64,000 nucleotides of DNA from Chloroflexi bacterium CFX6 (GTDB lineage: Bacteria; Chloroflexota; Anaerolineae; Anaerolineales; Villigracilaceae), in the NCBI GenBank assembly GCA_030263595.1, contig SZPG01000020.1:1-64000 (forward strand), in the 5' to 3' direction. Below, in pieces: positions 36,872 through 42,764 of this stretch. Numbering within the stretch: the stretch's first letter is position 1; every line of letters starts with the position of its first letter. The notes below the pieces were generated by a model, which saw only the letters and a program-made list of their open reading frames with translations, did no database searches and had not been told where the DNA came from. A program made the position numbers and the translations under genes.

Positions 36872-36968
36872 CCCGGTCCTCCAAATCTCTACTCTTGCAA
36901 TCCTCTTGACTGATGTTACGCAATGATGCCCGTAACGCGAGACTGCGTAGCGTCTCGCCTTTCAGGCT

Positions 36969-37122
36969 TCTCACTTTCTACTTTCCACTTCCCACTTTCC
37001 GCTTTCTACTTTCCACTCTCCACTTTCTACTTTCCACTCTCCACTCCCCACTTTCCACTTTCTACTTTCCACTTTCCACTTTCCACTTTCCACTCCCCAC
37101 TTTCCACTCCCCACTTCCTACC
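36969..37122. repeat. Pyrimidine-rich tandem array of CTTTCCA/CTTTCTA units
   Basis: About 20 imperfect 6-8-base units of the form ctttcca, ctttcta or ctcccca fill 154 bases. On the minus strand this reads gtggaaagtagaaagt. The same word is part of the 41-nt repeat found in tlyA and mvk, and appears at 44901-44915 and 50250-50270. There are no spacers, so it is not a CRISPR array. The last bases overlap the end of the rhomboid gene. Confidence 0.85.
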
Positions 37123-38591: not shown

Positions 38592-39449
38592 TTATTGCGG
38601 CTTTTCCAATATCCTCTCCACCATCCGAGCGACCTCTCCGCTTCCTTCCCGACCCCCAGTCTGATCCAGCCATGCGAGGAACTCCGCGTTCCCCTTCGGT
38701 CCCAGCAACGGACTCCTGACCAGCCCGCGAATCGCGAATCCCTGCTTTTGCGCGAAACCCAGAACGTCGAACAAAACCTGTTTGTGGATCTCCGGGTCGC
38801 GGATCACGCCGTCGCCGCGCGAGACATCCTTCCTGCCCGCTTCGAATTGAGGTTTGATCAAAGCAACAACACTTTCCACCCTTCGACTGCGCTCAGGGCA
38901 GGCTTTCCACTTTCCACCACCCATGGGAGAAGCGGAAGGCGGAGAGTGACCAAACCAATATTTGACCACCGGCAGCAAAATCTTCAACGAGATGAACGAC
39001 GCGTCGATCGTTATGAGCGAAACCGGCTCTGGCAGGGATTCGACGTACCGCGCGTTCGTCTCCTCCATTACGACCACGCGCGGGTCGTTGCGAAGTTTCC
39101 AATGCAGGATTCCCTTTCCCACGTCCACGGCATAGACCTTCGCCGCGCCGCGCTGCAAAAGGCAGTCCGTAAAGCCTCCCGTGGACGCGCCCACGTCCGC
39201 GCACACCAGTCCGCTCACGTCAATTGCGAATGCTTCGAGCGCGGCGTCCAGTTTTTCGCCGCCGCGTGAGACGAAGCGCGGACCGGTATCCACCGTCAGC
39301 GTGGAGTCGCTGTCCACGTTTGCGGCAGGTTTGAGGGCGGTCTGACCCGCCACGCGCACCTGTCCCGCCATGATCATCGCCTGTGCCCTGGCGCGCGAGT
39401 CGGCAAGTCCGCGCTCCACGAGTAACACATCCAGCCGCACTTTCGTCAT
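38592..39449 (-). CDS. tlyA: TlyA-family rRNA methyltransferase/hemolysin, with in-frame repeat insert
   Basis: 285 residues from ATG 39449. N-terminal S4 RNA-binding domain (VRLDVLLVERGLADSRARAQ to about 65), then a FtsJ-like methyltransferase: DVGASTGGFTDCLLQRGA (about 92), TIDASFISLKILLP (about 145), and VALIKPQFEAGRKDVSRGDGV (about 195). Known TlyA proteins 2'-O-methylate rRNA and affect capreomycin sensitivity. Between the ILLP strand and VALIKPQF, where relatives have a short turn, about 28 extra residues occur (168-195, including ACPERSRRVE). They are encoded by repeat DNA, including a 41-nt repeat identical to one in mvk. It is divergent from the UbiA gene. Confidence 0.9.
   Translation of the reverse strand: MTKVRLDVLLVERGLADSRARAQAMIMAGQVRVAGQTALKPAANVDSDSTLTVDTGPRFVSRGGEKLDAALEAFAIDVSGLVCADVGASTGGFTDCLLQRGAAKVYAVDVGKGILHWKLRNDPRVVVMEETNARYVESLPEPVSLITIDASFISLKILLPVVKYWFGHSPPSASPMGGGKWKACPERSRRVESVVALIKPQFEAGRKDVSRGDGVIRDPEIHKQVLFDVLGFAQKQGFAIRGLVRSPLLGPKGNAEFLAWLDQTGGREGSGEVARMVERILEKPQ
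38872..38912 (-). repeat. 41-nt repeat inside tlyA (identical to 41122-41162)
   Basis: On the minus strand it begins aagtggaaagcctgccctga and ends gtcgaagggtggaaag. All 41 bases match the mvk copy, which is on the plus strand. In tlyA it is read in frame as KWKACPERSRRVE. Confidence 0.95.
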
Positions 39450-39495
39450 GGATGCAATTGTACTTCCCGCGCGTAAAAAAGGTAAAATTGCCCCC

Positions 39496-40365
39496 ATGCT
39501 CATACACCTGCTCAAAACCATGCGCCCGCGCCAATGGACGAAGAACGGCTTCGTCTTTTTCGCGTTGATCTTCGACAAGCAATTGTTCCTCCGCGAACCG
39601 TTCCTGCGGACGCTCGGAGGCTTTGCGTTGTTTTGTTTGATGTCGAGTTCCGTGTATCTTTTCAACGACCTCGCGGACATCGAAGCCGACCGCAGTCACC
39701 CCGAAAAGAAAAAGCGCCCGCTGGCTTCGGGCAAACTGCCGGTTTCCGTCGCGATGACGAGCGCCTTCGTTTTGGCTTTGGCGTCGTTGTCCCTGGGCTA
39801 CCTGCTCGAACCGCTTTTTGCCGGCCTCCTTGCGGTGTATCTCGCCATCAACCTGTTGTATTCGCGCTGGCTCAAACACGTGCCGGTCCTGGACGTGTTG
39901 ATCGTTTCTTCGGGTTTTGTGCTGCGCGTGGCGGCGGGCGTGACGCTCATCACGGTCGAGCGCTTTTCGCCCTGGTTGTACGTGATCACGGTGTTGTTCT
40001 CGCTCTACCTCGGTTTTGGAAAACGCCGCGCCGAAATGAGCCTGCTCGAAAAAGGCGCCGCTTCGCACCGCAAAGTGCTGGACGGTTACACCATTCCCCT
40101 GCTCGACCAGTACATCACCATCGTTTCGGGCATGACCATCGTCACGTATGCCTTGTACACCTTCTCCGCCGAGAACCTGCCCGACAACCACAGCATGATG
40201 CTCACGATCCCGTTCGTGGTGTACGGCATCTTCCGCTATTTGCAGCTCATTCAAACCGGTCACGCGGCGGGCTCGCCCGAGGAAGTGGCGCTCAAAGACC
40301 GCCCGCTGCAGCTTACCGTCCTGTTGTGGGGACTGGCTGTGATCGCGGTGTTCTACTTGTCGTAG
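39496..40365 (+). CDS. UbiA-family prenyltransferase, decaprenyl-phosphate phosphoribosyltransferase type
   Basis: 289 residues from ATG 39496. About nine transmembrane segments. MRPRQWTKNGFVFFALIF (residues 9-26) and NDLADIEADRSHPEKKKRPLA (about 54-74) with the Asp-rich motif NDxxDxxxD are typical of the DPPR-synthase branch of UbiA. The second acidic region, near GFGKRRAEMSLL, lies about 175. Proteins of this branch move phosphoribose onto polyprenyl phosphate in arabinan-making bacteria; in this organism the acceptor and product are not known. A TAAAAT-like box sits about 7 bases before the ATG, so the mRNA may be leaderless. It precedes mevalonate kinase. Confidence 0.85.
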   Translation: MLIHLLKTMRPRQWTKNGFVFFALIFDKQLFLREPFLRTLGGFALFCLMSSSVYLFNDLADIEADRSHPEKKKRPLASGKLPVSVAMTSAFVLALASLSLGYLLEPLFAGLLAVYLAINLLYSRWLKHVPVLDVLIVSSGFVLRVAAGVTLITVERFSPWLYVITVLFSLYLGFGKRRAEMSLLEKGAASHRKVLDGYTIPLLDQYITIVSGMTIVTYALYTFSAENLPDNHSMMLTIPFVVYGIFRYLQLIQTGHAAGSPEEVALKDRPLQLTVLLWGLAVIAVFYLS

Positions 40366-40414: not shown

Positions 40415-41401
40415 ATGACCACCGCTTCCGCGCCCGGCAAGATCATCCTCTTCGGCGAACACGCTGTCGTCTACGGACGACCCGCGCTGGCTGTACCGGT
40501 TACGCAAGTCCATGCGGATGTGGAGGTCGCCGTTTCAGACCGCCCCGGCATCTGGATCAGCGCCCCGGGCATTGACCTTCACGCCGAACTGAACTCGCTT
40601 CCCTCCGACCATCCGATTGCCGCGGTCATCCATAACTTTCTCTTCCTCTCGCGCGTCCCTCACCCCCAGCCCCTCTCCCAAAGGGAGAGGGGGGGCAAAG
40701 TCCCGAATCTCGAAATCACGATCGCCTCCACCATCCCCGTCGCCTCCGGTCTCGGCTCCGGCGCGGCAGTGACGGTCGCCCTCCTCCGCGCGCTATCGTC
40801 ACACCTTCATTATGCGATGACCAATGAGGAGATCAACGCGTTCGCGTACGAGATCGAAAAACTCCATCACGGCACGCCTTCGGGGATTGACAACACGGTC
40901 GTCACGTATGCAAAGCCGGTTTACTTCGTAAAGGGTCAGCCCATTGAGATATTGCAGGTCGGCAAACCGTTCACCATCGTCATCGGCGATACCGGCCTCC
41001 CCGCGCCGACGAAGGAATCCGTGGGCGATGTGAGGAAATTATGGGAGGTTGATAAATCGAAATGGGAAAACATGTTCGACCAGGTTGGAGAAATCGCAAA
41101 GCAGGCGCGTAACGCGTTGAAAAGTGGAAAGCCTGCCCTGAGCGCAGTCGAAGGGTGGAAAGAGTTGGGCGGTTTGATGAACGACAATCACGCGCTTTTG
41201 CAGGAGATGACCGTCTCTTCGCCCGAACTCGACAGGCTGGTTTCGGCGGCGCGCAATGCCGGGGCGCTGGGAGCAAAACTCAGCGGCGGAGGACGCGGCG
41301 GCAATATGATCGCGCTGGTGGATTTTGAGAAAGCGGAAGCGGTCGCATCCGCTTTGACCTCCGCCGGGGCAAAACGGACTTTGATCACAACGGTTGGATG
41401 A
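40415..41401 (+). CDS. mvk: Mevalonate kinase with two in-frame repeat inserts
   Basis: 328 residues of the GHMP kinase fold. SAPGKIILFGEHAVVYG (5-21) is motif 1, IPVASGLGSGAAVTVALL (about 107-124) is the phosphate loop, EKLHHGTPSGIDNTVV (about 148) has the catalytic Asp, and KLSGGGRGGNMIAL (about 287) is motif 3. It phosphorylates mevalonate, feeding isopentenyl diphosphate synthesis. Two segments look inserted: PHPQPLSQRERG at about 82-93, and KPALSAVEG at about 239-247. Both are encoded by repeats seen elsewhere in this window. Their positions fall in loops, and the motifs on both sides are intact. No other mevalonate-pathway gene lies in the window. Confidence 0.93.
   Translation: MTTASAPGKIILFGEHAVVYGRPALAVPVTQVHADVEVAVSDRPGIWISAPGIDLHAELNSLPSDHPIAAVIHNFLFLSRVPHPQPLSQRERGGKVPNLEITIASTIPVASGLGSGAAVTVALLRALSSHLHYAMTNEEINAFAYEIEKLHHGTPSGIDNTVVTYAKPVYFVKGQPIEILQVGKPFTIVIGDTGLPAPTKESVGDVRKLWEVDKSKWENMFDQVGEIAKQARNALKSGKPALSAVEGWKELGGLMNDNHALLQEMTVSSPELDRLVSAARNAGALGAKLSGGGRGGNMIALVDFEKAEAVASALTSAGAKRTLITTVG
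40658..40693 (+). repeat. Palindromic cacccc/ctctccc repeat inside mvk
   Basis: cctcacccccagcccctctc is followed by ccaaagggagagggg. It forms a hairpin (ctctccc with gggagag). The same element lies before radA (52817-52852) and, decayed, at 24517. In mvk it is translated as PHPQPLSQRERG. Confidence 0.85.
41122..41162 (+). repeat. 41-nt repeat inside mvk
   Basis: Starts aagtggaaagcctgccctga and ends gtcgaagggtggaaag. Identical to the tlyA copy over all 41 bases; the DEAD-helicase copy (44864-44904) differs at 3 positions. Read in mvk as SGKPALSAVEGWKE. Confidence 0.95.
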
Positions 41402-41437: not shown

Positions 41438-41466
41438 TTTTCACTTCCCAGCCGAAGCGTTATAAT
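41438..41466 (+). promoter_or_regulatory. Candidate promoter of the A1408-methyltransferase leader
   Basis: A perfect TATAAT (41461-41466) is 17 bases after TTTTCA (41438-41443, 4 of 6 matches to TTGACA). The leader ORF starts 8 bases after the -10 box, so its mRNA would be leaderless or nearly so. Confidence 0.55.
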
Positions 41467-41473
41467 GTCCGCC

Positions 41474-41506
41474 ATGAACAAGTTCCTCGCCCGCCCTCCC
41501 TGTTAA
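41474..41506 (+). CDS. Candidate 10-residue leader peptide of the rRNA methyltransferase gene
   Basis: ATG at 41474 opens MNKFLARPPC and a TAA. It begins right at the predicted transcription start, 183 bases before the methyltransferase gene on the same strand. Drug-inducible rRNA-methyltransferase genes (erm type) often have such short ORFs, on which an antibiotic-bound ribosome stalls. The peptide ends in ARPPC, with two prolines next to the stop, which could slow ribosomes. It may also be a chance frame; the evidence is only its place and spacing. Confidence 0.4.
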   Translation: MNKFLARPPC

Positions 41507-41526
41507 TTCATCGCTGAACCCCAAAC

Positions 41527-41683
41527 GGTACGCGCGTACAGCGGGGACTATTTCGCGTTTTCCATAACTCGTAGAAAACCGACTCCCGACGATCTCGACG
41601 GCGCCTGACGAACCAGGCGCATCTTCGCGCGCGGTCCGCCCCGCTCCATTCTGTCTCGTTCGATCCCAACGACAGAATGGAGG
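41527..41683 (+). promoter_or_regulatory. Structured 5' leader with hairpins; last stem overlaps the Shine-Dalgarno
   Basis: Four inverted repeats in order: GTACGCGCGTAC (41528-41539); GTTTTC (41557-41562) with GAAAAC (41574-41579); GCGCCTG (41601-41607) with CAGGCGC (41614-41620); and CCATTCTGTC (41646-41655) with GACAGAATGG (41671-41680), extended by GTT/AAC. The last 3' arm covers the first two bases of the GGAGG at 41679-41683. This could limit translation of the downstream gene until the stem opens. Confidence 0.5.
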
Positions 41684-41689
41684 TTTCGC

Positions 41690-42289
41690 ATGGAAACTAT
41701 TCGGGGCAGAATGTCCCTTGATTTGAACTTGAACGAACTAATGGAACGGATCGCAAATTACAACCGCGTCGCACTCGATCTCGGCACGGGCGACGGTCGC
41801 TACGTGCGCTGCATGGCGGAACGACATCCCGGAAATTTTTTCATCGGCATGGATGCGTGCCGCGAGAACCTGCGCGCCAACTCACAGAGAAAACTGCCGA
41901 ACGCGCTCTTCGTCATTGCCGGAGCGCAGGCTTTGCCGCGCGAGTTGAACGGACTGGCATCACACATCACGATCAACTTCCCGTGGGGCAGCCTGCTCGA
42001 AAGCCTGTTGAACGACGACCCATCCTTGATGAACGGGCTTTCCTCCATCACACGTCTGCGCGCAGGGATGGAGGTTCTCCTCAACGCAGAGGCGCTCGCC
42101 ATGGCAGGCTGGTCATTGGAATCGGGCGCGGACCAGATCGAACGCCTCCTGAACGCCGCCGGTTGGAAAACAAAATCACGCGCATTCTTGGACGCGCCGG
42201 CTTTGCGTTCCGTCCCGACCACGTGGGCGAAACGTCTCGCCTTTGGGCGCGACCCGCGCGCGATGCGATTGAGTTTGATAAAGGGATGA
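41690..42289 (+). CDS. 16S rRNA (adenine-1408 N1) methyltransferase-like protein, KamB/NpmA family
   Basis: 199 residues from ATG 41690, with GGAGG 6 bases upstream. LDLGTGDGRYVRCMAERHP (29-47) is SAM motif I of the m1A1408 family, FFIGMDACRENLRANS (50-65) follows, and LFVIAGAQALPREL (73-86) and SHITINFPWGSLL (91-103) come next. The two tryptophans known to sandwich the target adenine are both present: W99 in NFPWGS and W179 in VPTTWAKRLAFGRDP. Family members either confer resistance to kanamycin- and apramycin-type aminoglycosides or have lost strong activity, so resistance is possible but not proven. A strong terminator follows. Confidence 0.88.
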   Translation: METIRGRMSLDLNLNELMERIANYNRVALDLGTGDGRYVRCMAERHPGNFFIGMDACRENLRANSQRKLPNALFVIAGAQALPRELNGLASHITINFPWGSLLESLLNDDPSLMNGLSSITRLRAGMEVLLNAEALAMAGWSLESGADQIERLLNAAGWKTKSRAFLDAPALRSVPTTWAKRLAFGRDPRAMRLSLIKG

Positions 42290-42338: not shown

Positions 42339-42764
42339 TTACAACCCAACCGGCTTCGGTCCGATATTGAACCGGCGGTGCATGGCGCGCATACAGGCAT
42401 CCATCACCACCTGCAAGCCCGCCTGGCGCGCCTTCTGCGCGGCTTCCTCGTTGACGATGCCCTCCTGCATCCACACCGCCTTCGCGCCGATCCTGATCGC
42501 CTCCTCCACCACCGGCGGAACGTCCTCGGGCTTGCGAAAGACCTGCACCACATCCACTTTTTCGGGAATGGACGACAGGTCGGGATAAGCCTTTTCGCCC
42601 AGGATCTCCGCCGCGGTCGGGTTGACGGGAACGATCTTATAGCCCTGTCCCTTCAAATAGGACGCGACCCCGTAACTCTCCTTGTCCGGGTTGGAGGACA
42701 ATCCCACGCTGGCAATCGTATTCACAGACAGAAGAATTTCCTTCATCATTTGATCGTCGTTCAT
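42339..42764 (-). CDS. CoA-binding domain protein (YccU family)
   Basis: 141 residues of a Rossmann fold. ASVGLSSNPDKESYGVASYLKGQGYKIVPVNP (about 18-49) is the CoA_binding_2 signature; VDVVQVFRKPEDVPPVVEEAI and KAVWMQEGIVNEEAAQKARQAGL (about 95-117) follow. VMDACMRAMHRR is the usual C-terminal motif with its Cys. The cellular role is unknown in the family, perhaps CoA or persulfide related. An upstream gggagag-like site gives a ribosome-binding site. It is convergent with the rRNA methyltransferase gene. Confidence 0.85.
   Translation of the reverse strand: MNDDQMMKEILLSVNTIASVGLSSNPDKESYGVASYLKGQGYKIVPVNPTAAEILGEKAYPDLSSIPEKVDVVQVFRKPEDVPPVVEEAIRIGAKAVWMQEGIVNEEAAQKARQAGLQVVMDACMRAMHRRFNIGPKPVGL

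Follow-up and report, generated by a model that had tools for sequence, protein, structure and literature searches.

Serial in-frame stop codons as a probable miscoding sensor before A1408 methyltransferase genes of Chloroflexota

In erm leaders such as ermBL and ermCL, a drug-responsive leader frees the Shine-Dalgarno (SD) sequence of an rRNA methyltransferase, which protects the binding site of the drug itself. Aminoglycoside riboswitch control of resistance genes has reportedly been claimed for the integron aac/aad leader, which would share with the locus described here the induction by aminoglycosides via a leader, but has no stop-codon logic. That riboswitch is reported to be contradicted by experiment (PMC9410878). 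In Pseudomonas aeruginosa, the PA5471.1 leader peptide is reported to make MexXY/ArmZ inducible by ribosome-targeting drugs, aminoglycosides included (PMC12057347); the likeness to the present locus lies in the leader peptide and in drug-inducible resistance, whereas the mechanism proposed there is attenuation of transcription involving ribosomes that are impaired or stalled, and in the accessible part of that paper stop-codon readthrough does not appear, the sole ‘readthrough’ being transcriptional. The toiL upstream ORF of topAI is described as responding to several ribosome-targeting antibiotics and as opening a hidden ribosome-binding site, as proposed here, but through drug-dependent stalling proposed at various codons, the abstract making no mention of readthrough (PMC12121999). 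Known inducible leaders, i.e. those of erm, toiL and, probably, PA5471.1 of MexXY, sense ribosome-targeting drugs by stalling.

RAPP and RGPP are described as robust arrest motifs of peptides that occur upstream of diverse genes (PMC12992588), and in ApdA, ApdP and ApcA the motif is reported just upstream of the regulated gene, at a spacing that allows for opening of a hairpin, as is also found here (PMC10951233, PMC12992588). The first known of these peptides precede protein-localization genes, whereas the Chloroflexota motif sits behind two in-frame stop codons; the terms ‘readthrough’, ‘methyltransferase’, ‘stop codon’ and ‘aminoglycoside’ are absent from the main text of PMC12992588, and the first two from PMC10987492. 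In prfB, encoding release factor 2 (RF2), an early in-frame stop codon senses termination efficiency, which recalls a second form of the Chloroflexota genes, with the stop inside the gene, but prfB shifts frame while the in-gene form keeps it. AMD1 is a human gene of the polyamine pathway, unrelated to drugs. In its C-terminal tail readthrough is followed by an arrest peptide, as proposed here, the pause being reported at a second in-frame stop (PMC13025110). A 2016 review states, in its accessible text, that no organism was known to use regulatory readthrough instead of the RF2 or antizyme frameshift (PMC5009743). Among the matches listed in a literature search, which covered few subscription papers and no bioRxiv preprints, no title or abstract opening dealt with readthrough-controlled resistance genes or with leaders of A1408 methyltransferases, and there was no case of bacteria reading translational error itself to induce resistance. 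Thus, the parts are known, namely A1408 methyltransferases, SD-hiding leaders, RAPP arrest and drug-inducible leader peptides, and the stop-codon sensor is, as far as can be seen, new.

The stretch of DNA analysed here, hereafter the window, comprises 64,000 nucleotides from Chloroflexi bacterium CFX6 and is part of a contig of 90,374 bases in a genome of 4.07 Mb that is 90.9% complete. A previous, sequence-only reading had proposed that a KamB/NpmA-like gene in it is preceded by a ribosome-stalling leader of the erm type. Indeed, the gene product is a member of the NpmA family PF24675 in a profile search (E 5.2e-53; 180 bits, cut-off 60), none of the named subfamily cut-offs (KamB, WarA, NpmA and NpmB) being reached. 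The closest solved structures (7ehf, 3mte, 3p2e and 4rwz) belong to A1408-family methyltransferases of 16S rRNA, and the enzyme is predicted to modify precisely A1408 of 16S rRNA. A known RNA family for the leader was rejected, there being no Rfam match at gathering score within the window. No plasmid match was found, and none of four candidate viral contigs was a relative. The features of the locus are collected in table 1.

Table 1. Features of the methyltransferase locus and its neighbours (window numbering).
Feature	Position	Strand	Remarks
Mevalonate kinase gene	40415-41401		Upstream neighbour of methyltransferase gene
Sigma-70-like promoter, TTTTCA-17-TATAAT	41438-41466	+	10/12 consensus positions
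ORF1, coding part, MNKFLARPPC	41474-41503	+	RPPC before stop in 47/52 leaders
Stop 1, TAA in window	41504-41506	+	In leaders: TAA 38, TAG 12, TGA 2 (n = 52)
ORF2, FIAEPQTVRAYSGDYFAFSITRRKPTPDDLDGA	41507-41605	+	Frame of ORF1; no ATG, GTG or TTG; third-position variation
Terminator-like hairpin, then GTTTTCCAT, inside ORF2	41541-41556	+	Similar hairpin and U-rich tail in 21/52 leaders
Hairpin around stop 2, GCGCCTG/CAGGCGC	41601-41620	+	Predicted by folding
Stop 2, TGA followed by C	41606-41608	+	UGA 52/52, UGAC 49/52
ORF3, RTRRIFARGPPR..	41609-41643	+	Same frame as ORF1 and ORF2; runs into SD hairpin
Arrest motif RGPP	41630-41641	+	First Pro codon (41636-41638) is the expected P site; motif class as reported in PMC10951233, PMC12992588
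SD hairpin, 5′ arm, CTCCATTCTGTC	41644-41655	+	Starts +8 nt from first base of expected P-site codon
SD hairpin, 3′ arm, GACAGAATGGAG	41671-41682	+	Holds GGAG of Shine-Dalgarno GGAGG (41679-41683)
NpmA/KamB-family 16S rRNA (adenine1408-N1)-methyltransferase gene	41690-42289	+	199 aa; PF24675; PDB relatives 7ehf, 3mte, 3p2e
CoA-binding-domain gene	42339-42764	Opposite to methyltransferase gene	Downstream neighbour

All evidence is comparative and comes mostly from metagenome-assembled genomes. The leaders compared are 52 distinct ones, i.e. those of loci L001-L080 minus L013 (a weak match outside the family), minus duplicates (defined by identity over 200 bases upstream and 60 downstream of the start) and minus L017 and L035, whose genes are identical in reading to those of L060 and L054, plus L088 and L089, which were found by motif. 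The −10 element and the ORF of 10 codons, MNKFLARPPC, from which the sequence-only reading had set out are all in place, with promoter, ATG (41474) and TAA (ending at 41506); promoter-like sites number 3 in 2.5 kb against 0.8 expected in shuffles. Since the −10 TATAAT ends 7 nt upstream of the ATG of ORF1, the transcript is probably leaderless, and a −10-like hexamer (at least 4/6 positions) is found up to 22 nt from the ATG in 41/52 leaders, 39 of which have 6-10 nt between the two. Conservation in relatives, named in that reading as a check, is high: ORF1 ends in RPPC in 47/52 leaders and in PPx in 51/52, and the three-part order described below is found in 52/52. In the own genome, an RPPC-like pattern has 9 matches, 7 of them with a real stop, against 15 for the reversed-pattern control, and the remainder of the leader follows only at the methyltransferase locus.

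Beyond the TAA, what looks like a spacer continues the frame of ORF1 and is itself conserved as coding sequence, which the sequence-only reading had missed. ORF1, stop 1, ORF2, the UGA of stop 2 and ORF3 lie in one frame in all 52 distinct leaders and in four of five later loci (L096, L100, L105, L126 and L127), for a total of 56/57; in L126, the frames of ORF1 and ORF2 are offset by one base where a run of C occurs, perhaps through a sequencing error, and ORF2 and ORF3 agree. The stops are 18, 28, 29, 33, 34, 35, 37, 38, 39, 40, 42, 52, 62 or 93 codons apart, so that many length changes have preserved the single frame, while between them the other two frames hold stop codons in 50/52 and 52/52 leaders. 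An insertion in ORF3 of L003 and a long ORF2 spacer in L007, in both of which the readthrough frame stays open, provide a natural frame test. Modulo 3, the nucleotides separating stop 2 from the methyltransferase gene number 0, 1 or 2 in 23, 14 and 15 of the 52 leaders, a random phase as expected if the leader's own frame alone matters. A leader-methyltransferase fusion as the conserved product was rejected, the window's leader being in frame with the gene but just 23/52 leaders sharing this property, and a frameshift between ORF1 and ORF2 is superfluous, the frame being unchanged.

The changes within these blocks are those of coding sequence. Among codon pairs that differ, 80% are synonymous at the end of ORF1, 83% at the end of ORF2 and 83% in the R(A/G)PP block, as compared with 29, 26 and 34%, respectively, for random single changes, with the caveat that choosing the blocks via amino-acid motifs raises the synonymous share somewhat. 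ORF2, which in the window ends in KPTPDDLDGA before the UGA, was anchored on LDG(A/G)-stop, making those residues conserved by construction (L100 has LDGT), and across leaders the Leu of PTPDDLDGA is encoded by CTC, CTG, CTA, CTT, TTA or TTG. R(A/G)PP is present in the leader frame in 52/52 (RAPP in 30, RGPP in 22) and in none of 104 readings of the other two frames; in resampled stretches it appears in 60 of 10,400. In-frame coding conservation past a conserved stop is a mark of programmed readthrough, and dependence of this leader on stop-codon readthrough is strongly supported by the comparison. Given coding stretches conserved after both stop 1 and stop 2, the informative event would be passage through the stop codons.

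The SD sequence is hidden, as had been noticed from the last hairpin of the leader covering part of GGAGG: the CTCCATTCTGTC/GACAGAATGGAG helix pairs GGAG, and the sequence leading up to the gene is calculated to fold more stably than shuffled versions (z −2.56 and −3.21). The mere presence of such a helix is a biased measure, because the search picks the best helix per sequence; in a structure-free alignment of 34 distinct rows of the window's family, 388/406 cells of the helix are paired and 33 are double-change cells, against 37-48% paired and 0-4 double-change cells in slid controls. For hairpin and occupancy counts L070, L074, L076 and L077 were excluded (start unsure, masked or far), leaving 48 leaders. 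As to geometry, the 5′ arm starts +8 nt from the P site at the first Pro codon in 22/48 leaders and between +5 and +13 in 44/48; in the window, R(A/G)PP starts 123 nt past stop 1 and its first Pro codon 8 nt before the SD hairpin. With its front edge a ribosome reaches about 15 nt beyond its P site, and one stalled at this codon would, therefore, cover the pairs that hide GGAG. The computed openness of the SD sequence has a median of 0.012 in the free leader, 0.011 with a ribosome at stop 1 and 0.008 with one at stop 2, and rises to 0.27 with a ribosome at R(A/G)PP, a modest gain, with openness above 0.5 in only 9/48 leaders; moving the ribosome from stop 2 to R(A/G)PP increases openness in 45/48, the other 3/48 showing no such increase. 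These folding calculations are supportive of SD opening by a ribosome at R(A/G)PP, but not conclusive.

Decoding-site aminoglycosides make ribosomes accept near-cognate tRNAs, at stop codons as well. Probably, the leader is a miscoding sensor, in which readthrough caused by an aminoglycoside leads to a stall at R(A/G)PP that opens the hairpin and so turns on the methyltransferase. In such a mechanism, the leaderless mRNA would begin at ORF1, and without the drug translation would terminate at stop 1, the SD sequence would stay hidden by the hairpin and almost no methyltransferase would be made. An aminoglycoside bound at A1408 in the decoding site would cause stop 1 and then stop 2, in its UGAC context, to be misread, with translation of ORF2 and ORF3. 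The nascent chain would then arrest the ribosome at R(A/G)PP, the likely stall site, presumably independently of the drug, the P site being occupied by the first Pro codon; the arrested ribosome would cover the 5′ arm and free the SD sequence, allowing for another ribosome to initiate on the methyltransferase gene. Methylation to m1A1408 would finally block the drug, misreading would drop and the switch would close. Two serial stops would be expected to multiply the change at each of them, leading to low leakage and a steep response, and the terminator-like hairpin between the stops (21/52 leaders) may add a layer of transcription attenuation. RNA melting alone does not explain why the RPPC and PTPDDLDGA peptides are conserved; they may delay termination and thereby promote readthrough, or cause a ribosomal pause at stop 2. 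In Escherichia coli, amikacin is reported to raise stop-codon readthrough about 2-fold overall, from half the MIC, with the greatest effect on reporters of low basal level such as TAA (PMC10959953). The small size of this effect counts against the model, and two stops might not give a sufficient range in Chloroflexota.

The leader shares with erm-type attenuators the freeing of the SD sequence of a target-protecting rRNA methyltransferase, but it would sense the misreading of stops rather than a drug-dependent stall, the stall site being reached only via two stops. Classical attenuation of that type, in which the drug stalls the ribosome in ORF1 at RPPC and hairpins rearrange, would account for the conservation of ORF1 and of its RPPC end, and the locus does present a small leader ORF followed by a target-modifying gene with a hidden SD sequence. 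However, it leaves unexplained both the in-frame coding conservation that follows stop 1 and again stop 2 in 52/52 leaders and the in-gene stops of other family members, and in the folding calculation a ribosome at stop 1 keeps the SD sequence closed (0.011 against 0.012 in the free leader), making it very unlikely. Thus, of the earlier proposal, a leader before an A1408 methyltransferase with a hidden SD sequence has stood, the leader being conserved and apparently translated, while the erm-type stall on the 10-codon ORF has given way to the passage of stops to which the downstream coding conservation points. Swapping of hairpins was discarded, occupancy calculations showing no release of the SD sequence by a ribosome at stop 1, and the earlier puzzle, the lack of a second copy able to pair with the SD-stem arm, would vanish, because a ribosome stalled on the 5′ arm needs no swap. 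That ORF2 and ORF3 are translated from starts of their own, or by reinitiation after ORF1, and not by readthrough is hardly credible: ATG, GTG or TTG is present in 10/52 ORF2, but 42/52 have none, which leaves stop 1 as the way in, and the frame of ORF1 is fixed despite stops 18 to 93 codons apart, ORF3 follows a UGA in the same frame and the in-gene stops follow the same logic.

Two further readings would retain passage through the stops. Readthrough might be real but respond to another signal than the drug, i.e. release-factor shortage, proline or EF-P stress, or a general loss of fidelity, which would be in keeping with the use of all three stop codons at stop 1 and with a possible slowing of termination by RPPC and by the prolines before both stops. 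Such a signal is unlikely, as the controlled gene is predicted to modify precisely A1408, the ORF2 pattern is restricted to the NpmA family in 400 genomes (9/9), and the interchangeable use of UAA, UAG and UGA argues against sensing of one release factor. Alternatively, the leader might be mainly a transcription attenuator, with readthrough ribosomes moving behind RNA polymerase and blocking the terminator-like hairpin, and opening of the SD sequence secondary to this. The hairpin with its U-rich tail between the stops in 21/52 leaders, the window's included, would fit, but it was not found in 31/52, among them all 8 short forms (18 codons), and far greater constancy is seen in the SD hairpin and in its distance from R(A/G)PP; terminator-like sites number 5 in 2.5 kb against 3.2 expected by chance. 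A main role of attenuation is, on this evidence, distinctly unlikely, and a miscoding sensor acting on the SD sequence is preferred.

The second form, which lends independent support to such a sensor and in which the stop codon is found inside the methyltransferase gene itself, emerged from a family search in 400 Chloroflexota genomes, 40 of which gave a match at E up to 1e-10. Sorted by frame reading, 15 of the 40 members have the leader, 15 an in-gene stop and 10 neither, the latter including the partial hits G341 and G325, with the leader of G325 not read. The in-gene stop (TAA in 6, TAG in 8 and TGA in 1 of 15) lies about 16 codons after the start and is preceded by (E/D)(V/I)DVG in 13/15 and by G in 15/15; in L119, another stop comes two codons further on. 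For L119, L120 and L121, the genome search reports two stops (TGA and TAG) within the methyltransferase hits. No internal stop was found in any of 63 hits of the FmrO (G1405 methyltransferase) family, nor among the best 150 hits listed of the KsgA family, so that assembly error is no explanation for the in-gene stops, and in six FmrO loci scanned for R(A/G)PP no comparable architecture was seen. The ORF2 DNA pattern is present in 9/400 Chloroflexota genomes, in 9/9 directly before an NpmA-family gene.

In a quickly built tree of 80 rows, limited to the parts downstream of the stop (29/77 inner branches weakly supported; L012, L070, L116, L120 and L121 not included), the leader form occupies one side of a branch (SH-aLRT 90) and the in-gene form needs two changes. 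That tree requires at least 6 changes of stop identity in each form, i.e. the kind of stop drifts while its being a stop is kept. It is probable that many A1408 methyltransferases of Chloroflexota are under the control of in-frame-stop drug sensors of these two forms, with miscoding as the inducer and methylation closing the loop. Neither leader nor in-gene stop was seen in the stretch read of other Chloroflexota members (L103, L106, L108, L113 and L090-L093). Two leader records may carry a wrong assignment in their titles (L074, ‘Firmicutes’, and L077, ‘Proteobacteria’); in the phylum of L074, 7/199 genomes have a match, six with neither form in about 420 bases before motif I and the seventh being the L074 genome itself.

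If the model is true, these genes would represent a class of bacterial regulation with translational error itself as the input, i.e. a new sensing principle, as well as a rare bacterial example of regulation by stop-codon readthrough and a natural reporter of translational fidelity. It would also be a warning that genes annotated as broken by a stop may be intact but conditional.

Elsewhere in the window, a short repeat, CTGAGCGCAGTCGAAG, with its flanks is found at 41131-41166 (+ strand) and at about 38872-38897 (− strand), the copies lying inside reading frames on opposite strands (the mevalonate kinase gene and an ORF at 38592-39680, respectively), neither of which is broken. At 36923-37110, an array of similar short units, which on the + strand translates into LSTFHFPLSTFYFPLS-like repeats, adjoins a long opposite-strand ORF.
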